From the NCBI GenBank assembly GCA_019637195.1, contig JAHBWA010000032.1, positions 1 through 64,000 on the forward strand: a DNA stretch of 64,000 bases, written 5' to 3'. A program made the translations under genes and the position numbers. The notes beneath the pieces were generated by a model. That model had not been told where the DNA came from and made no database searches. It saw only the letters and a program-made list of their open reading frames with translations. Positions 7,077 to 16,254 of this stretch are shown piece after piece (the stretch's first letter is position 1; every line of letters starts with the position of its first letter). This stretch comes from Labilithrix sp. Lineage in GTDB: Bacteria > Myxococcota_A > Polyangia > Polyangiales > Polyangiaceae.

Positions 7077-9524
7077 TCAGACGTAGAGCGTGAGGGAGAA
7101 GAAGAAGGTCCGCGGCGGCCCCACGGTGACGTGACGGAAGGGCACGCGCGCCGGGGTCGCCGCGCGCGAGAAGTTCGACGCGTAGACGAACTGGCCGTCG
7201 TACCAGCTCGCGTCGAGGAGGTTGAACACGTCGATCCCGAGCTCGACCTCCTTCAGGCGGAGCGCGGCGGAGGCGTCGACGAGGAAGACGTGGCGGCCGA
7301 GCTCGCCGAACGGGAGCGGGCGACCGACGAGGCCCTCGAGCCCGGCGCCCACCCGCGCCTCGAGATCGCGCCCGAGCACCCGGCCGAGCTTCTGCTTGGC
7401 GGCGGCGTCGGTCCGGAGCACGAGCTGCGGCACGTACGGGAGCAGATCACCCTTTCCGTACTGGGAGTCCGCGCCGGTGAACGACGCGTGCGTGTAGGTC
7501 GCGCTGCTCGAGAGCAGGAGGAGCTCGCCCGCGCGCGCGGTCATCTCGGCGGCGAGCCCCCGGCGCGCCGTCCCCGGGACGCGCTCGTTGCGCGCGGTCG
7601 CGGGATCGAAGACGAGGTCCTCGGAGAGATCGGTGTAGAAGCCCGCGAGGGAGCCCGCGAGACGCGCGCCGTCGCCGTAGCGGACCCCCAGCTCGTAGCT
7701 CGACACCTCCGTCAAGAACGTGCGCTCGCCGTTCGACAGCCCGCGCGCTTGCGGCGAGCGGAAGCCGTCGCCGTAGCTCGCCACGACGTGCGTGCGCGGG
7801 AGGACGCCGTAGTCGAGCGTGAGCTTCTTGCCGAAGTGAGCGCCCTGCGCCGCGCGAGCCTGCGCCGGCGCGAGCGCCCCCTGCGCGTTCACGCGGTCCT
7901 CCGCGGCGTACGAGAGGCCGTCGACGCGGACGCCCCCGCGGATCGCGAGGCGCCGCACCGGATGGATCGCCGTATCGGCGTAGGCGGCGATGTTCGTGCC
8001 GCGCACGGCCGCGTCGACGAGCGTCTGCGTGGGGACGTCGTTGACGTCCGAGAGGCGCCGCTGCGACTGCTCGATGACGTCATGGCGCCCGTAGACGCCG
8101 ATCTCGACGGCGTCGCGCGGCGAGAGGAGGGTGACGCCCTTGCGGTACGACGCGGTCGCGCCCGCGGTGAGGCTCTCGTTCACCTGCTGGGTGTTGTCGC
8201 TGTCGAGCCGGTCGGCCCCGCCGCGCTGCGTGTCGGCGAACCATCCCGTGAAGTTCTGTCGGAGGTGGAGCGAGCGAAGCACGACGAACGGCGCGATCGC
8301 CCAGCGACCGTGGTCGTCGTCCTTGTGGAGCTCGAGGAGGAGCTGGTTGCGCGACGAGTAGCCTCCCTGCTTCGGATCGAGGGTCGCGAAGCGGTCGAGT
8401 CGACCGGACTCGACGTCCGCGGCCGGGACGACGCCCGCCGAGTCGTAGCGCCCCGCGTAGGTGGACGCGAGGACGCGCAGCGAGAGCCCGCCGTCGAAGT
8501 CGTGGGTCCCCTGCGCGATCATCGACGCTCGTCGCGCCGCGCGGCTCGGGCCGAAGCCGTCGGTCGAGTAGACCTCACCGGCCGCGAACGTCTCGTCGCT
8601 CGCGTCCTTCGGGTGGTAGGCGAGGAAGAGCCGCTTCGCGCCGAACGAGCCGACGGTCCCCTTCACCGTCGCGCCGGGCTCGGCGTAGCCGAGCTTCATC
8701 CGGATCGAGCCGGCGACCGCGAAATCCCCCTGCTTCGGATCGTAGGTGCCGGGCGTGGCCTGCACTTCGCGGATGACCTCCGGCATCACGAAATGGAGGT
8801 CGGCGTACCCCTGGCCGTGGACGTTCGACACCTCGTTGATCGGCACGCCACCGACCCACAGCTCGAGGTCCTGGCCGTGCACCGCGTCGAAGCCGCGGAG
8901 GAAGATCTGATGCGCCTTCCCCTCGCCCGAGTGCTGCGTGACGAAGACGCCGGGGACGACGGCGAGCGCGTCGCTCGCCGTTCGATGCGGAGCCGCCATG
9001 ATGACGTCACGCCCGCGGACGACCTCGGACGCGCTGCGCGGCGGCGCGTCACCGCTGACCCGCACGTCGCGCGCGTGAGCGGCGTCCTCCGCGGCGGCGC
9101 CCGTCGCTTCCGCGGCGGCGGCCGTCGTCGCCGTCGGCGACCCCGACGAGCTGGGGACGTGCCCCGCGCCCGCGCCCGCGAACCGCACGACGCTCCGGAT
9201 CTTCGCGGCGACGGGCTTGCCGTCGCGGCGCGCCGGCTCGAACGTCCACGTCCGCGCCGCCGCGAGCGCGGCTCGGTCGAGCTCCGGGCTCACGTGCACC
9301 TCGACCTCGGCGCTCGACACGCGACCGTCCTCGCCGACGACGAGGACGACCGGCACGACGACGTCGTGGGTCTCGGCGCGCCCGCCTGGCCACGTCGGCG
9401 CCGGCTGCGTCTTCGCCTGCGGCTGGACGACGTCATGGGCGCGCGCCGGCCGGGCACCGAGCGTCAGCCAGGACGCGAGGAGGAGGAGCGCGAGCGCCCA
9501 GCGCGAGCGGTCCGGACGTCGCAT
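7077..9524 (-). CDS. TonB-dependent receptor with N-terminal TonB-C-like domain (probable nickel uptake)
   Basis: An 815-residue outer-membrane receptor. After a signal peptide (about 1-29) comes a TonB C-terminal-like domain, about 45-115: VVPVVLVVGEDGRVSSAEV, LDRAALAAARTWTFEPARRDGKPV. An Ala-rich linker follows, then the plug (about 165-280: SDALAVVPGVFVTQHSG, IFLRGFDAVHGQDLELWVGG, EVQATPGTYDPKQGDFAVAGSI) and the 22-strand barrel to the C-terminal FFFSLTLYV. Receptors pull substrates through the outer membrane with TonB energy. Nickel is proposed because the promoter carries the NikR-type operator 10 bases before the ATG and the locus has NikR and a NicO permease. The TonB-C domain is normally on the energising partner, so the fusion is unusual, though seen in other myxobacterial receptors. 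Confidence 0.88.
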   Translation of the reverse strand: MRRPDRSRWALALLLLASWLTLGARPARAHDVVQPQAKTQPAPTWPGGRAETHDVVVPVVLVVGEDGRVSSAEVEVHVSPELDRAALAAARTWTFEPARRDGKPVAAKIRSVVRFAGAGAGHVPSSSGSPTATTAAAAEATGAAAEDAAHARDVRVSGDAPPRSASEVVRGRDVIMAAPHRTASDALAVVPGVFVTQHSGEGKAHQIFLRGFDAVHGQDLELWVGGVPINEVSNVHGQGYADLHFVMPEVIREVQATPGTYDPKQGDFAVAGSIRMKLGYAEPGATVKGTVGSFGAKRLFLAYHPKDASDETFAAGEVYSTDGFGPSRAARRASMIAQGTHDFDGGLSLRVLASTYAGRYDSAGVVPAADVESGRLDRFATLDPKQGGYSSRNQLLLELHKDDDHGRWAIAPFVVLRSLHLRQNFTGWFADTQRGGADRLDSDNTQQVNESLTAGATASYRKGVTLLSPRDAVEIGVYGRHDVIEQSQRRLSDVNDVPTQTLVDAAVRGTNIAAYADTAIHPVRRLAIRGGVRVDGLSYAAEDRVNAQGALAPAQARAAQGAHFGKKLTLDYGVLPRTHVVASYGDGFRSPQARGLSNGERTFLTEVSSYELGVRYGDGARLAGSLAGFYTDLSEDLVFDPATARNERVPGTARRGLAAEMTARAGELLLLSSSATYTHASFTGADSQYGKGDLLPYVPQLVLRTDAAAKQKLGRVLGRDLEARVGAGLEGLVGRPLPFGELGRHVFLVDASAALRLKEVELGIDVFNLLDASWYDGQFVYASNFSRAATPARVPFRHVTVGPPRTFFFSLTLYV

Positions 9525-9862: not shown

Positions 9863-10465
9863 CTACGTCCGCCGGCTGCGCCCGCTCGCCTTCCGCCCCG
9901 CCGCGCTCCCCTCATGCCCGTGCCCGTGCCCGTGCCCGTGCCCGTGCCCGTGCGAGTGTCCGTGCCCGACGGCGCCGCCCCGCCGCTTCTCTCCCTTCCC
10001 GGTCGCGCTCGCTTTGCCGGAAGCCCCCGGCTTCACCGCGCCCGCGCCTGTGCCGTTCGCCGGCTCGATCGCGATGAGCTCCATCCCGCCGTGCTTCACC
10101 CCGCGCGTCGCGAGGAGCTTTCCGCCCGCGCGCTTCAGCTCGTCGGACGGCCCCTTCATCACGATCACCTCCAGGCAGTGATCGTGGTCGAGGTGCACGT
10201 GCAACGCGGAGTTCACCTTGTCGCCGAGGGCGTGCTGGAAGTCGGTGAGTCGCTCGGTGAGGTCGCGGACGTGATGATCGTAGACGAGCGTGAGCGAAGC
10301 GACGGCGTTGGCTCCCGTCGTCACGCGCGCGCGCGTGATCTCGGCACGCACGAGATCGCGCAGCAGCTCCGAGCGTGTCCCACCACGCTCCGCGACGAGC
10401 GCGTCGAACTCCTCGAGCAGCGATCCCTCCATGGCGACCCCGAAGCGAACCAGCGAGTCCTTCAT
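9863..10465 (-). CDS. nikR: nickel-responsive regulator NikR with His-rich C-terminal tail
   Basis: A 200-residue protein. Residues 1-45 are a ribbon-helix-helix DNA-binding domain (VRFGVAMEGSLLEEFD, GTRSELLRDLVRAEI). Residues 55-135 are the ACT-like nickel domain. H78, H89, H91 and C97 have exactly the spacing of the four nickel ligands H76, H87, H89 and C95 of Escherichia coli NikR, and LHVHLDHDHCLEVIVMKG is close to the canonical sequence. The last 60 residues are extra: Gly/Ala/Lys-rich, then HGHSHGHGHGHGHGHGHE, a nickel-buffering-type tail absent from standard NikR (about 130-150 residues). It probably represses the receptor, lipoprotein and transporter genes when nickel is plentiful. 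No copy of the operator is visible before its own start. Confidence 0.93.
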   Translation of the reverse strand: MKDSLVRFGVAMEGSLLEEFDALVAERGGTRSELLRDLVRAEITRARVTTGANAVASLTLVYDHHVRDLTERLTDFQHALGDKVNSALHVHLDHDHCLEVIVMKGPSDELKRAGGKLLATRGVKHGGMELIAIEPANGTGAGAVKPGASGKASATGKGEKRRGGAVGHGHSHGHGHGHGHGHGHEGSAAGRKASGRSRRT

Positions 10466-11775: not shown

Positions 11776-12597
11776 TCAGCCGCCGCGCGCGCCGAGCAGG
11801 ACACCGCGCTCGCCGAGATCGGCCAGGAGCCGAGCCGCTCCCGCGAGCACGGCGTCGTCGAGCGGATGCGCCTTCGCCGCGCACGCAGCGACCAGCGCCG
11901 GACCGAGGGCGTCGCCCGCGAACAACCGCTCGAGGATCACGGCCGCGAGCGGGGTGAGCTCGAGGAACCGCGATCGATGCTCGCCGTCGCGGTACACGAG
12001 GATCGACACCGGGCGCGCCGCCGGCTCCGCGTCGAGATCGTCCGACGGGACCTCGTTCACCGCCCAGGCGAGCTGGATGAGCTGCTTCGGCTCGGCGAAG
12101 ACGAGCGGCAGCTCGGCCGACACCTCCGCCAGCGGCGGCGGAGGGAGCGGCCGTGGAGCGATGCCGATCGTGAAGTCGAGCAGCTCGAGCTCGGCGTAGT
12201 CGGCGATCCAGCGCGGCAGACGGGCGTCGGCGCGCCACCGCGGCGCGGCCCACGCGACGAACTCCGACGGCACGTCGCGGAGGTGGGGCGTGCGCGGACC
12301 GACCTGGTCGAGGAAGGCAGACATCGCACGGTCGAGCTCGCCAGGGACGCGCCGGTCGAGGCGCGCGCGTGTTCGCTCGAGCATCCGCGCGATCACACCT
12401 GTCACGTTGTGGCGGACGAGTCGCCGGTAGAGCCCCAGCCGCCGCGGCGCCGCGAGGAGCGCCTCCGCGTCTTCGCCCGCGACGCCGTGGGCGGCGAGGA
12501 ACGTCGCGAGATCGGCGTCGACGGCGGCGCCGTCCTCACCGAGGCAGGCGCTCGCGAACATCGCCTGCAGCCGCTCCGTCGCGCGCGCGTCGCTCAT
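11776..12597 (-). CDS. DUF2063-family partner of the MNIO enzyme (BufC/MbnC-like)
   Basis: A 273-residue protein whose ATG overlaps the MNIO stop (ATGA, 12594-12597), so the two are translated together. The N-terminal half fits DUF2063: GLYRRLVRHNVTGVIARML near residue 55, then LRDVPSEFVAWAAPRW and IADYAELELLDF. In known MNIO pathways (methanobactin MbnC, bufferin BufC) this protein recognises the precursor leader and forms a complex with the iron enzyme. The C-terminal half, with LVYRDGEHRSRFLELTPLAAVIL and a helical end, resembles the winged-helix-like part of such partners. It presumably presents the lipoprotein precursor encoded at 13681-14148. Membership of DUF2063 is by pattern, not search. 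Confidence 0.8.
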   Translation of the reverse strand: MSDARATERLQAMFASACLGEDGAAVDADLATFLAAHGVAGEDAEALLAAPRRLGLYRRLVRHNVTGVIARMLERTRARLDRRVPGELDRAMSAFLDQVGPRTPHLRDVPSEFVAWAAPRWRADARLPRWIADYAELELLDFTIGIAPRPLPPPPLAEVSAELPLVFAEPKQLIQLAWAVNEVPSDDLDAEPAARPVSILVYRDGEHRSRFLELTPLAAVILERLFAGDALGPALVAACAAKAHPLDDAVLAGAARLLADLGERGVLLGARGG

Positions 12598-13547
12598 CGC
12601 GCGATCTCCGCTCCCGCGAGATCGCGGTGCGCCTCGCCCCGGGCGGCCGCGTGGGCCGCGACCGCGCGCTGCCACACCTCGTCGACCCGGCGCACCTCGT
12701 CGACGAGCTCTGCGAGCGGCGGGATCGACTGATCGCGCTCGAGCAGCACCGGCACGGGGCCGGTCTTCACGAGGACGCGCTCGAGGAGCGCCATGACCTC
12801 GCTCGCGACGTCGCTGCCGTGCGTGTCGACGATCAGCAGTCCCTCGCGCGCCGCGAGGTCGCGCGGGCGCTCCGCGAGGACGAGCTCGGCCTCCGTCTCG
12901 GAGAACCAGTCGTGCCCGGCGACGTGCATCTGCACGACGCGCTCGAGCGGGACGGTGCGCATCCACGCGTCCACGTCGTAGCCGAAGTTCGTCGCGTTCA
13001 CCCAGGCGTTGTTGACGTCGAGCATCAGCCCGCAATCGGCCGCCTCGCAGACGCGCGCGATGAACTCCGCCTCGGACATCTCGCGCTTGCCGGGGTGCAG
13101 GTAGAAGCTGACGTTCTCGATCGCCATCGGACGGCCGATCGCGTCCTGGGCGCGCTTGATCCGGTCGGCGATGCGCGTCACCTCCGCGCGCTTGAACGCG
13201 ACCGGCAAGAGCTCGTGGAGGACGACGCCGCCGTGCGTGCTGAAGCAGAGGTGGTCCGAGTGCCACGGGCTCCCGACGCGCGCGATGAAATCACGGAGCC
13301 CCGCGAGGTACTCGCGGCGGAGTGGATCGACGCCGCCGAGGCTCATCGTCAGGCCGTGGGTGACGATCGGCCAGACGTCGCGCGCCCGCTCGAGGGCCTC
13401 GTCGTAGTAGCCGCCGCGCCCCATGTAGTTCTCGGGCGAGACCTCGAGGAACGCGATCGCCGGCTTCTGCTCGAGGATCTCGTCGATGAAGTCCCACCGG
13501 AGGCCGAGGCCGACGCCGTCGATCTTCTGGCTCCGCGCCTCCGTCAT
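12594..13547 (-). CDS. MNIO (DUF692) multinuclear iron oxidative enzyme, RiPP-modifying
   Basis: A 317-residue TIM-barrel enzyme of the DUF692/MNIO family. The metal-binding signatures are all present in order: SPWHSDHLCF, AIENVSFY, LMLDVNNAWVNATNFGYD, VVQMHVAGH, LLIVDTHGSDV and LLERDQSIPPLAEL. Family members use two or three iron ions and oxygen to remodel cysteines or other residues of ribosomally made peptides (MbnB makes oxazolone-thioamides; BufB makes thiooxazoles). The gene follows the Cys-repeat lipoprotein precursor and overlaps the DUF2063 partner, the classic three-gene set. ATG 13547 gives a normal N-terminus (IDGVGLGLRWDFIDEIL). All visible catalytic residues are intact, so the enzyme should be active. 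Confidence 0.93.
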   Translation of the reverse strand: MTEARSQKIDGVGLGLRWDFIDEILEQKPAIAFLEVSPENYMGRGGYYDEALERARDVWPIVTHGLTMSLGGVDPLRREYLAGLRDFIARVGSPWHSDHLCFSTHGGVVLHELLPVAFKRAEVTRIADRIKRAQDAIGRPMAIENVSFYLHPGKREMSEAEFIARVCEAADCGLMLDVNNAWVNATNFGYDVDAWMRTVPLERVVQMHVAGHDWFSETEAELVLAERPRDLAAREGLLIVDTHGSDVASEVMALLERVLVKTGPVPVLLERDQSIPPLAELVDEVRRVDEVWQRAVAAHAAARGEAHRDLAGAEIAR

Positions 13548-13606
13548 CGCGTGAGCCTCGGCATCGCGCCTCCGGCGGCCCGAGGGCGAGCGCCACGAAA
13601 CACGAC

Positions 13607-13644
13607 CCGGCCGGGCGAGCGCTGACGCGCGCCGTCCCGGCCGG
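13607..13644 (-). other. hairpin between precursor and MNIO genes
   Basis: Arms CCGGCCGGG (13607-13615) and CCCGGCCGG (13636-13644) can form a 9-bp all-GC stem with a 20-base loop in the transcript. It has no T-run. Stems of this kind between an abundant precursor and its enzymes often lower downstream expression or protect the precursor mRNA; that role is inferred. Confidence 0.45.
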
Positions 13645-13680
13645 TGCTCGAGCCCGCGAGCCGGCGCGCGCCGGCCCCGC

Positions 13681-14148
13681 TCATTTCTTGTTGGCGCAGG
13701 TGCCGGCGCCGCAGCTCGCCGCGCCGCCCTTCTTGGCAGCAGGCGCAGCCGCCGGCTTCTTCGCGTCCGCCGGCTTCTTCGGCGTCGCGTCCGGAGCCGA
13801 GGCCGCGGCCGCGGTGGTCGCGGGCGCAGCCGCCGGCGTCGCGTCGGTCGCCGGCGCGGCCTCCCCCGTCTTGCCCTCGGGCTTCGCGCCGCAGCCGCCT
13901 TCGCCGCCCTTGTGCGCGCCGCAGCCGCCTTCGCCGCCCTTGTGCGCGCCGCAGCCGCCTTCACCACCCTTGCCCGCGCCGCAGCTCCCCTCGCCGGGCT
14001 TGGCTTCGCTGCCCGCCGCCGGGGTCTCCGTGGAGGTCACCGGCGACTCCGCCGGCTTGTCGCCGCCGCCGCATGCCGCCATGACCACGCTCGTACCGAG
14101 AACGGCGAGCGCTCCGGCAATCTTCTCTACGGACAGGTTCGGTCGCAT
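13681..14148 (-). CDS. lipoprotein precursor peptide with EGxCGA repeats (bufferin-like RiPP)
   Basis: A 155-residue protein with a strong ribosome site (AAAGGAG, 8 bases before ATG 14148). The signal peptide ends in VVMAAC, a lipoprotein-type site with C26. The core, residues 52-90, holds four Cys motifs at exact 10-residue spacing: EGSCGA then three EGGCGA, with C56, C66, C76 and C86, two of them followed by HK. A Pro/Ala/Lys-rich stretch leads to a C-terminal SCGAGTC with C146 and C151. EGxCG repeats behind an export signal, next to a MNIO and a DUF2063 gene, match bufferin precursors, whose modified cysteines bind copper in the periplasm. Here the product would be membrane-anchored, which is not the usual form. 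The 30-bp DNA repeat behind the core is perfect in two units. Confidence 0.85.
   Translation of the reverse strand: MRPNLSVEKIAGALAVLGTSVVMAACGGGDKPAESPVTSTETPAAGSEAKPGEGSCGAGKGGEGGCGAHKGGEGGCGAHKGGEGGCGAKPEGKTGEAAPATDATPAAAPATTAAAASAPDATPKKPADAKKPAAAPAAKKGGAASCGAGTCANKK
13891..13980. repeat. 30-bp in-frame tandem repeat encoding the Cys core
   Basis: Units 13891-13920 and 13921-13950 are identical; 13951-13980 differs at four or so positions, and a fourth, more diverged unit follows. Each encodes one ten-residue EGGCGA block of the precursor peptide, so core copy number can change by slippage without frameshift. Confidence 0.9.
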
Positions 14149-14268: not shown

Positions 14269-15087
14269 TCACGGCTCCGCTTTCGCCCGGATGTCGAGCG
14301 AGATGTCGGCGTTGTCCGCCACCTTCGTCCCGAGCAGGTGGAACGAGCTCTTCGCGATCTTGCCGAAGCCGTCGCGCGGCTTGACGTCGTGCTCGGCGAG
14401 CACCACGCGGAGCGGCTTCTTCGTCTTGATCCAGAGGGCCTTCGGCTGGTCGGCCGGCGCCCCGCCGTCGTACCGGAACGACACCTCGAGGTCGGCGTCA
14501 CGCTCGACCTTGTGGCCGTGGACGAGGAGCTCCCCCTTCGTCGTCAGCGTCACGGCGCGGACGTCGTCGGCGCCGTCCTTCGTCGGCGCGACCTTCGTGA
14601 TGTCGGTCGCGCTCGCCGCGTCGATCGCGCGGATCGCGTAGACGGCGTAGCGGTTCGCCTGCTTGACGGGCTCCTCGAGCTTGCCCTTCTCGCCGTCGGC
14701 GACCTCGAGCCAGGTGCGCGCGTGGAGCGTCTGCGACGCGTTCTTCTCTGCCTCGGGGAACGTCGTCATCGCGATCGTCGAGAGATCGAGCTTCACCTCG
14801 CCGCGCGAGCTCGCGAGGTTCGCGAGGTCGACCGAGAGCGTCCCGGCGCCGCCGGTGGTCGTCGCCTTGATCTTCTCCTTCGGCGCATCCATCTCGATCG
14901 AAGTCTTGCTCTCGCCGTCGACGGCGAACTTCTTCGTCGACGCGCCGGGCGGCGGCGTCGACGACGCGAGCGCGCTCGCGACGGGCGCCAGGTCCGGCTT
15001 CTTGTCCTCACACCCCGCGAGCAGGAGCCACGCGACCGCGGAGAGCCCAGAGGCGATGCCCCTCGCGACCTTGCACTTGTTCGTCAC
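14269..15087 (-). CDS. YceI-like domain lipoprotein
   Basis: A 272-residue lipoprotein from GTG 15087, preceded by GAGAGGGAGAAG. The lipobox is LAGC. After a Ser/Pro-rich linker, residues of about 65-270 read as a YceI-like lipocalin fold: FAVDGESKTSIEMDAP, GAGTLSVDLANLASSRGEVKLDLSTI, then VTLTTKGELLVHGHKVERDADLEVSF and a C-terminal strand NADISLDIRAKAEP. YceI proteins bind isoprenoid-type lipids in the periplasm and often sit near respiratory or copper genes. It lies 120 bases upstream of the MNIO precursor on the same strand, so it may be the first gene of that transcript. Whether it takes part in the pathway is unknown. Confidence 0.78.
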   Translation of the reverse strand: MTNKCKVARGIASGLSAVAWLLLAGCEDKKPDLAPVASALASSTPPPGASTKKFAVDGESKTSIEMDAPKEKIKATTTGGAGTLSVDLANLASSRGEVKLDLSTIAMTTFPEAEKNASQTLHARTWLEVADGEKGKLEEPVKQANRYAVYAIRAIDAASATDITKVAPTKDGADDVRAVTLTTKGELLVHGHKVERDADLEVSFRYDGGAPADQPKALWIKTKKPLRVVLAEHDVKPRDGFGKIAKSSFHLLGTKVADNADISLDIRAKAEP

Positions 15088-15396: not shown

Positions 15397-16254
15397 ATGC
15401 TGACGGTCTACGACGCCGTGACGACGCACCGGGTGTGCCCGTGCGACTGCTTTCGGAACCTCACGGTCGCCGAGCGCGTCGCCGGGATCCGCGCGGTCTA
15501 CCACCTCGACGACGCGCTCCGCGGCTGGGGCTACACGCCGATCTACGACGTCCACGGCGACCTGCTCTTCAAGCAAGCGCAGCAGAAGGGAGACCCGTCG
15601 TACCGCGGCGTGGCGGTGCGCTTCGGCGAGTGCATCTACCGCCGGCTGCTCGGGAGCCTCGTGCACGAGTGCCTGCACGCCGTGTGCGGCGACGTCACCA
15701 AGGCGAACTACGGCATCCTCTTCGGGCTCCCCTACGGCGTCCCCCCCGAGGTGGCGCCCACCGACGAAGAGGCGTTCCTCGAGCCGTTCAACTTCGGCGA
15801 GGCCCGCGCGTGGGCCGGCGTCTGGATCGTCGGCAAGAAGATGTTCGGCGTCGACTGGGACCTCCGCACCGCGCGCGACGTCGGCACCTACTGCTTCACC
15901 GGCGGCAACGCGCTCGTCTCCGTCCCCGCGGGCTACCGCGCCGTCGCCCACGTCGATCGCACCCATCACCCGGAGCGCTACTACGCGAAGGGACGCAGGC
16001 TCGAAGAGCGCGCCCGCGCGTGGTTCGCCGAGGACGACAACCTCGCGGAGGTGATCGCGCGGATCGACGCCGCGGCGGCGCTCGGCAAGGAGAAGCGTCC
16101 ACGCCGGTACCCCGACGCGGAGACGATCGCCAAGACGGCACCGAAGCGGATCGAGCGCAACGATCCGTGCGTCTGCGGGAGCGCCAGGAAGTTCAAGGAG
16201 TGCTGCGGTCCCCGCGGGACGCTCGAGCACTTCCTCCCCGTCAACGCCCGCTGA
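15397..16254 (+). CDS. SEC-C motif protein with HECLH motif
   Basis: A 285-residue cytoplasmic protein. The C-terminus is a textbook SEC-C zinc motif (RNDPCVCGSARKFKECCG, about 256-273), the module that binds zinc and often contacts SecB or ribosomes. The rest is unusual: an N-terminal CPCDCF cluster and LGSLVHECLHAVCGD near residue 95. HECLH resembles an HExxH metallopeptidase motif, but no clear third ligand stands out. Charged and aromatic residues dominate the middle, with no membrane segment. It stands alone between the MNIO cluster and a convergent envelope gene. Function unknown beyond likely zinc binding. Confidence 0.8.
   Translation: MLTVYDAVTTHRVCPCDCFRNLTVAERVAGIRAVYHLDDALRGWGYTPIYDVHGDLLFKQAQQKGDPSYRGVAVRFGECIYRRLLGSLVHECLHAVCGDVTKANYGILFGLPYGVPPEVAPTDEEAFLEPFNFGEARAWAGVWIVGKKMFGVDWDLRTARDVGTYCFTGGNALVSVPAGYRAVAHVDRTHHPERYYAKGRRLEERARAWFAEDDNLAEVIARIDAAAALGKEKRPRRYPDAETIAKTAPKRIERNDPCVCGSARKFKECCGPRGTLEHFLPVNAR

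Follow-up and report, generated by a model that had tools for sequence, protein, structure and literature searches.

The DNA that we analyzed, a 64,000-nucleotide stretch of the Labilithrix sp. contig JAHBWA010000032.1 (hereafter the window), carries what we judge, at a probability of about 0.68, to be a captophorin (oxazolin-type) RiPP cluster that would make a lipid-anchored thiooxazole copper chelator beside a lipid-binding antioxidant lipocalin. The genome (G000) comprises 10.1 Mb, with the cluster on contig C246; among named organisms, Labilithrix and other Polyangiaceae MAGs are closest to it. The features of the locus, in reading order along the minus strand, are as follows.

14269..15087, minus strand: YceI-like lipocalin lipoprotein of 272 aa with the lipobox LAGC, assigned from a fold model, its relatives and its linkage to MNIO genes
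13681..14148, minus strand: precursor lipoprotein of 155 aa, with a signal, a lipobox, Cys repeats, an Ala/Pro/Lys linker and an SCGAGTC tail
14071..14148, minus strand: signal peptide and lipobox Cys of the precursor (residues 1-26), unusually conserved, the probable recognition leader
13882..13998, minus strand: tandemly repeated 30-bp unit that encodes the Cys repeats (TRF row 13885-13996)
13696..13713, minus strand: codons for the conserved CGAGTC motif (C146-C151), of a tail type present in 39 of 49 precursors
12594..13547, minus strand: MNIO (DUF692) enzyme of 317 aa, HvfB-like, matching PF05114 at 309.6 bits
11776..12597, minus strand: PME1 partner (DUF2063 plus NGO1945_C/RRE) of 273 aa, assigned from Pfam matches

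A sequence-only reading of this DNA had described three genes, an MNIO enzyme with a DUF2063-like partner and a Cys-rich precursor, and all three are present at the coordinates it gave, on the minus strand, in the families it named and with the ATGA overlap (12594-12597) that joins the MNIO gene to the DUF2063 partner gene. What it missed is a fourth gene, as the cluster reaches further upstream to the YceI-like lipoprotein gene, and the reading order is YceI-like lipoprotein, precursor, MNIO, DUF2063/RRE partner. The precursor ATG at 14148 stands behind a strong AAGGAGTGA ribosome site, which is kept in relatives; no other DNA element ahead of the precursor proved conserved among the relatives compared. 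A sigma-70 promoter scan, uninformative at the G+C of the locus, returned none, and no copper-response element was identified at the locus. Divergent from the YceI-like gene is a gene for a SEC-C motif protein (15397-16254, plus strand) that lies near the cluster in most Labilithrix-group loci. In L041, L042, L049 and L055, the DUF2063 partner gene is opposite in strand to the MNIO gene, a rearrangement of an operon that is elsewhere fixed.

Translation of the precursor confirmed the seven Cys originally listed: C26 in the lipobox MAAC; C56, C66, C76 and C86 at a spacing of exactly ten; and C146 and C151 in the tail SCGAGTC. There are indeed four repeat units (CGAGK, CGAHK, CGAHK and CGAKP), but the His-Lys spacing ascribed to all of them occurs in only two. 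They are EGSCG/EGGCG repeats with one Cys per ten residues, as opposed to the repeated EGKCG (two per 17 residues), and the Lys before Cys that is typical of EGKCG is absent from the window precursor. The exact ten-residue spacing is explained by a recent 30-bp tandem duplication in the DNA (3.7 copies with 89% matches by TRF), and the copy number of the repeat varies among close relatives. By its sequence, MAAC is an SPII lipobox and lipidation of C26 is predicted; the membrane anchoring first proposed appears to be right. The precursor gave no Pfam match at E 1, including none to DUF2282, the profile singled out earlier as a check, and no credible match in NCBIfam.

The precursor gene is no chance ORF, as 49 loci (the window included) across the Polyangia carry a counterpart of the same gene type at the same place upstream of the MNIO gene, and the family is present in cultured species too (Nannocystis, Plesiocystis and Enhygromyxa). 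Since these 49 precursors were collected from ORFs upstream of MNIO genes in relatives with a lipobox required for selection, the presence of a lipobox in 49/49 is partly by construction; lipobox-like sequences are also present in those Cys-rich upstream ORFs which this filter had passed over (L044, L066, L068 and L069). The lipobox Cys is followed by Gly at +2 in 39 of the 49 precursors. A C-terminal CG[AEQP]G[TSG]C or near variant (the CGxGxC type) was likewise found in 39/49, while the count of internal Cys ranges from 0 to 6, with none at all in 9/49 loci; for L058, which carries at least 7 repeats, the count is too low owing to a downstream start choice. The residue after Cys is Gly, Ser or Ala for 97% of 210 precursor Cys, against a background of 50%. 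In nine Labilithrix-group precursors, the mean identity to the window was 85% for the signal and 80% for the last 14 residues, compared with 38% for the repeats and 44% for the linker. The four repeats, formerly taken as the hallmark of the product, are therefore its most variable part, whereas what is conserved is the signal peptide with its lipobox and the CGxGxC tail at the C-terminus, and the precursor keeps its place directly upstream of the MNIO gene down to 41% MNIO identity. In a Nannocystaceae group (L050-L054, L068, L071, L073 and L076), we observed repeat-only precursors (EGSCGG, EGSCKG, DGSCGA) that have neither the C-terminal motif nor the YceI-like gene.

The conservation of the signal peptide was compared with that of the neighboring YceI-like lipoprotein as a control. 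The precursor signal is 95, 91 and 77% identical to that of the window in L034, L035 and L039, whereas the signal of the neighboring lipoprotein is only 50, 5 and 9% identical in the same loci; the mature parts behave in the opposite way, that of the neighboring lipoprotein being better conserved than that of the precursor. Since the precursor signal is far more conserved than its neighbor's, the export machinery is probably not its only reader, and the comparison suggests that it doubles as the recognition leader for the MNIO enzyme. For bufferins, the signal has been proposed to be part of the enzyme recognition sequence (PMC12452194). With a strongly constrained signal peptide and repeats that come and go, the family offers a natural experiment on enzyme recognition.

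The MNIO enzyme matches PF05114 at 309.6 bits, above the cut-off, with residues 11-291 covering profile positions 1-261 of 263, and the nearly full profile upholds the description of a complete DUF692/MNIO enzyme. Its best PDB match is 3bww (E 4.7e-52), which is 72% identical to HvfB (PMC13419390). Residues H64, H99, E144, D177, N179, N180, H208, D241, H243 and E270 are invariant in 70 enzymes; by alignment, D241, H243 and one of N179/N180 correspond to the HvfB residues D242, H244 and N175, the loss of each of which abolishes activity (PMC13419390). Among the NCBIfam models, the enzyme scored 279.4 bits against BufB (NF050167; cut-off 310), 270.7 bits against HvfB (NF003818; cut-off 360) and only 55.5 bits against ChrH (cut-off 600), and because the HvfB and BufB equivalog cut-offs are both missed, the reaction could differ. 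The DUF2063-like partner was also correctly recognized from the sequence, since DUF2063 (PF09836, 32.7 bits) and NGO1945_C (PF22106, 48.4 bits) are both over their cut-offs; it further matches NCBIfam HvfC at 101 bits, below the cut-off of 142, and PDB 3dee at E 1.9e-4.

In an MNIO tree of 70 rows (quick search with SH-aLRT support, no bootstrap), for which the BufB1 and BufB2 references were identified by DUF2282 or Buf2-like neighbors, 56 Myxococcota-type enzymes, that of the window among them, adjoin 3BWW and a Woeseiaceae enzyme and, together with these two, are split from the BufB1/BufB2 references at 99. The window enzyme thus groups with the HvfB-type (oxazolin/captophorin) MNIOs, away from BufB. 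The exact rank of the Myxococcota clade is unsure because its support is 89 and the HvfB side has two references only, 3BWW (a partial sequence from an alignment) and the Woeseiaceae enzyme, L089. The bufferin-like class assigned in the sequence-only reading is not supported: EGxCG repeats mark the oxazolin/HvfA (captophorin) class, the precursor is no DUF2282 protein, the BufB cut-off is missed, and the enzyme lies across the split from BufB1/BufB2.

The YceI-like window protein scores 18.7 bits against PF04264 (cut-off 23.7), and homologues in other clusters score 27.8 and 25.1. In its AlphaFold model (pLDDT 80), the best 15 Foldseek PDB matches are all of the YceI family, BcnA among them, with E values from 8.8e-9 to 2.1e-5, so the product is predicted to have a YceI/lipocalin fold. 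The window genome has one copy of this subfamily and five canonical YceI matches elsewhere. Across 58 genomes, 19 of 32 YceI-like copies are within ~1.1 kb of an MNIO gene on the same strand, 17 of these 19 upstream of it, compared with a chance expectation of ~0.2% per copy. The other 13 copies are away from MNIO genes, several on broken contigs, but some stand well apart, so that the gene can function on its own. On the MNIO tree, only 2-3 independent pairs were available for comparing the tail with the YceI-like gene, too few to judge by. We found no paper joining YceI and MNIO in the literature searched; the survey of Antoine et al. (PMC12452194) admitted an unrelated gene only if it lay no more than 10 bp from a cluster gene, so a gene ~120 bp away, as here, would escape it.

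Beyond the cluster, a regulator of the NikR type whose long tail is rich in His (9863-10465, minus strand) adjoins a TonB-dependent receptor (7077-9524, minus strand) that also bears an N-terminal TonB_C domain. Of the relatives, only L034 and L084, the two closest, keep this neighborhood beside the cluster, and NikR is absent from all other cluster loci. A nickel link through NikR and TonB was for this reason rejected as part of the core, as was a ChrR-cupin regulator, likewise kept only in L034 and L084. DoxX, a usual companion in clusters of the captophorin class, had no match in the window genome and was not seen beside window-type MNIOs on the contigs compared; of 24 Lactamase_B_2 (PF12706) matches, none falls on contig C246. 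In some relatives, DoxX occurs near other MNIO loci.

We hypothesize that the N-terminal signal of the precursor, doubling as the leader, is bound in the cytoplasm by the MNIO enzyme together with the DUF2063/RRE partner, and that these then oxidize the Cys in the xGxCG repeats and in the CGAGTC tail, 5-thiooxazoles being the most likely products. Copper-binding 5-thiooxazoles are what MNIO-PME1 enzymes of the captophorin class make from precursors with Cys-Gly repeats, and one such pair, FonBC, accepts Ala, Arg or Thr before the Cys and requires the next residue to be Gly or Ala (PMC13097082). Window-type sites obey this after-Cys rule (Ser occurs at some sites in relatives), which makes six Cys, the four of the repeats and the two of the tail, the probable targets, with C26 probably reserved for lipid. 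The modified precursor would then be exported by Sec and lipidated at C26, and the Gly at +2 would probably direct the lipoprotein to the outer membrane, where the modified Cys may hold Cu(I). Alongside it, the YceI-like lipoprotein would probably act on those membrane lipids or quinones that are open to peroxidation driven by copper; we propose this joint role because BcnA, a YceI lipocalin of Burkholderia, shields the envelope from lipid peroxyl radicals (PMC9113575). Like the BcnA-type proteins, which belong to a periplasmic lipid-binding family, the neighboring gene product has a predicted YceI fold; it differs in its lipid anchor, in its divergent subfamily and in its linkage to an MNIO cluster rather than to cytochrome b561. 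Beyond the gene content, the families, the modelled lipocalin fold, the conservation pattern and the linkage that we observed, we infer the chemistry, Cu(I) as the metal, the outer-membrane location and the shared task of the lipocalin; the metal binding proposed earlier is likewise probable. That lipid-anchored thiooxazole proteins across the Polyangia have an essential CGxGxC tail and form a unit with a YceI-type lipocalin lipoprotein that protects outer-membrane lipids from copper-driven peroxidation is a bolder proposal, which we put forward only tentatively. If it is true, the cluster would pair a metallophore with a lipid carrier of antioxidant function, a pairing absent from the literature searched; through the lipocalin partner, copper chelation may be connected to the damage of membrane lipids, a connection that can now be tested directly.

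The conservation pattern also bears on where the enzyme acts. With the tail in 39/49 precursors, nine precursors lacking internal Cys, and the NCBIfam HvfB and BufB cut-offs both missed, the tail might be the true target of some other modification, such as a cross-link or macrocycle as in the CPACGMG motif of ChrH, the repeats being auxiliary or unmodified. We consider this unlikely, as the Nannocystaceae members have repeats without the tail and their MNIOs fall inside the same clade, the score against ChrH is far below its cut-off, and in HvfA the EGKCGEGKCG sequence, whose Cys are five apart like those of the tail, is converted to thiooxazoles (PMC13419390). A plain Cys-rich lipoprotein that is exported unmodified as a thiol buffer, with the MNIO enzyme acting elsewhere, would fit the very few Cys of some precursors; such a protein would hardly be expected to stay fixed upstream of the MNIO gene, with a constrained signal and small residues after its Cys, and we regard this explanation as very improbable.

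The modification could also be the one we propose while the main job is to sequester another soft metal (Ni, Zn, Au or Hg), since thiols and thiooxazoles may bind several of them and the NikR and TonB receptor genes are next door; given that L034 and L084 alone among the relatives retain this pair and that the metal known for the class is copper (PMC13097082, PMC12452194), we hold such a role to be quite unlikely. That the family has already been catalogued is unlikely, too; the candidate would be the precursor group that Antoine et al. call CxxxxC (Cluster X in a RiPP-lipoprotein survey). CGAGTC fits CxxxxC, and the group has signal peptides (lipoprotein signals in Cluster X members) and is entirely from Pseudomonadati, the kingdom that includes Myxococcota; against this, 54% of CxxxxC clusters have Lactamase_B_2 and the core includes DoxX, neither of which is on the window contig, and the published profile gathered only 76 proteins (PMC12452194). 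The published group and the window family may nevertheless overlap.

Captophorin assignment is our preferred reading, and in the oxazolin/HvfABC systems (captophorins, the EGKCG group; FonABC, gonophorin) the likeness extends to the order precursor-MNIO-DUF2063, repeated Cys-Gly pentads, a Sec-type signal, an enzyme that falls with HvfB in the tree and the HvfB-critical iron-site residues. The window cluster differs in having a lipobox, x-x-[GS]-Cys-Gly in place of Lys-Cys, a single Cys per 10 residues where the others have two EGKCG per 17, a conserved CGxGxC tail and a YceI-like lipocalin gene, and in having no DoxX. The NedABC system shares the lipoprotein signal, the repeated Cys-Gly motifs and the MNIO with its partner, and NedA of Neisseria dentiae is triacylated and modified in E. 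coli; its repeats, however, are EGKCG, and in the portion of that report available to us a CGxGxC tail and a YceI-like gene are not described (PMC12636315). Bufferins (BufABC; Buf1/DUF2282 and Buf2) likewise combine MNIO, DUF2063 and an exported precursor whose signal is a suggested recognition element, and they sequester copper by thiooxazoles; the window precursor is neither DUF2282 nor Buf2-like, and its enzyme lies across the 99-supported split. About 16% of Buf2 bufferins have a lipobox (PMC12452194), so that, together with lipidated NedA, the lipobox is not the novelty that it was first taken for, although the idea of a separate subclass stands. With the CxxxxC family/Cluster X (PMC12452194, PMC12636315), the cluster shares a signal peptide or lipobox, a CxxxxC motif and a PME1 partner, and it differs in lacking a Lactamase_B_2 or DoxX neighbor.

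MNIO clusters, oxazolin-type repeats and lipidated members were thus already known. Apparently unreported in the literature searched are the family itself, which spans the Polyangia, its combination of a conserved tail with repeats that it can do without, and its lipocalin partner. Lipidated MNIO products, until now isolated cases from other phyla, thereby gain a family that is conserved in myxobacteria.

The same genome contains two further MNIO loci. A second HvfB-like locus (L002, G000:C19:27543-28379) has a lipoprotein precursor with two CGAGTC motifs and PGKCGG, near the EGKCG type, and is without the YceI-like gene of the window subfamily. At the third (L003, G000:C326:3028-3633), an upstream ORF (L003:955-1317) encodes a lipobox precursor that ends in CPACGLG and is chryseobasin-like, scoring 20.3 bits against an NCBIfam ChrA-related model, below the cut-off of 40. 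Chryseobasin (ChrA/DybA) is, like the product proposed here, an MNIO-modified lipoprotein; with its CPACG motif and its other enzyme subfamily, it does not correspond to the window cluster. In L102, on a Pseudoalteromonas piscicida plasmid, a Cys-rich ORF with no evident signal peptide precedes the MNIO gene and fits no bufferin type.
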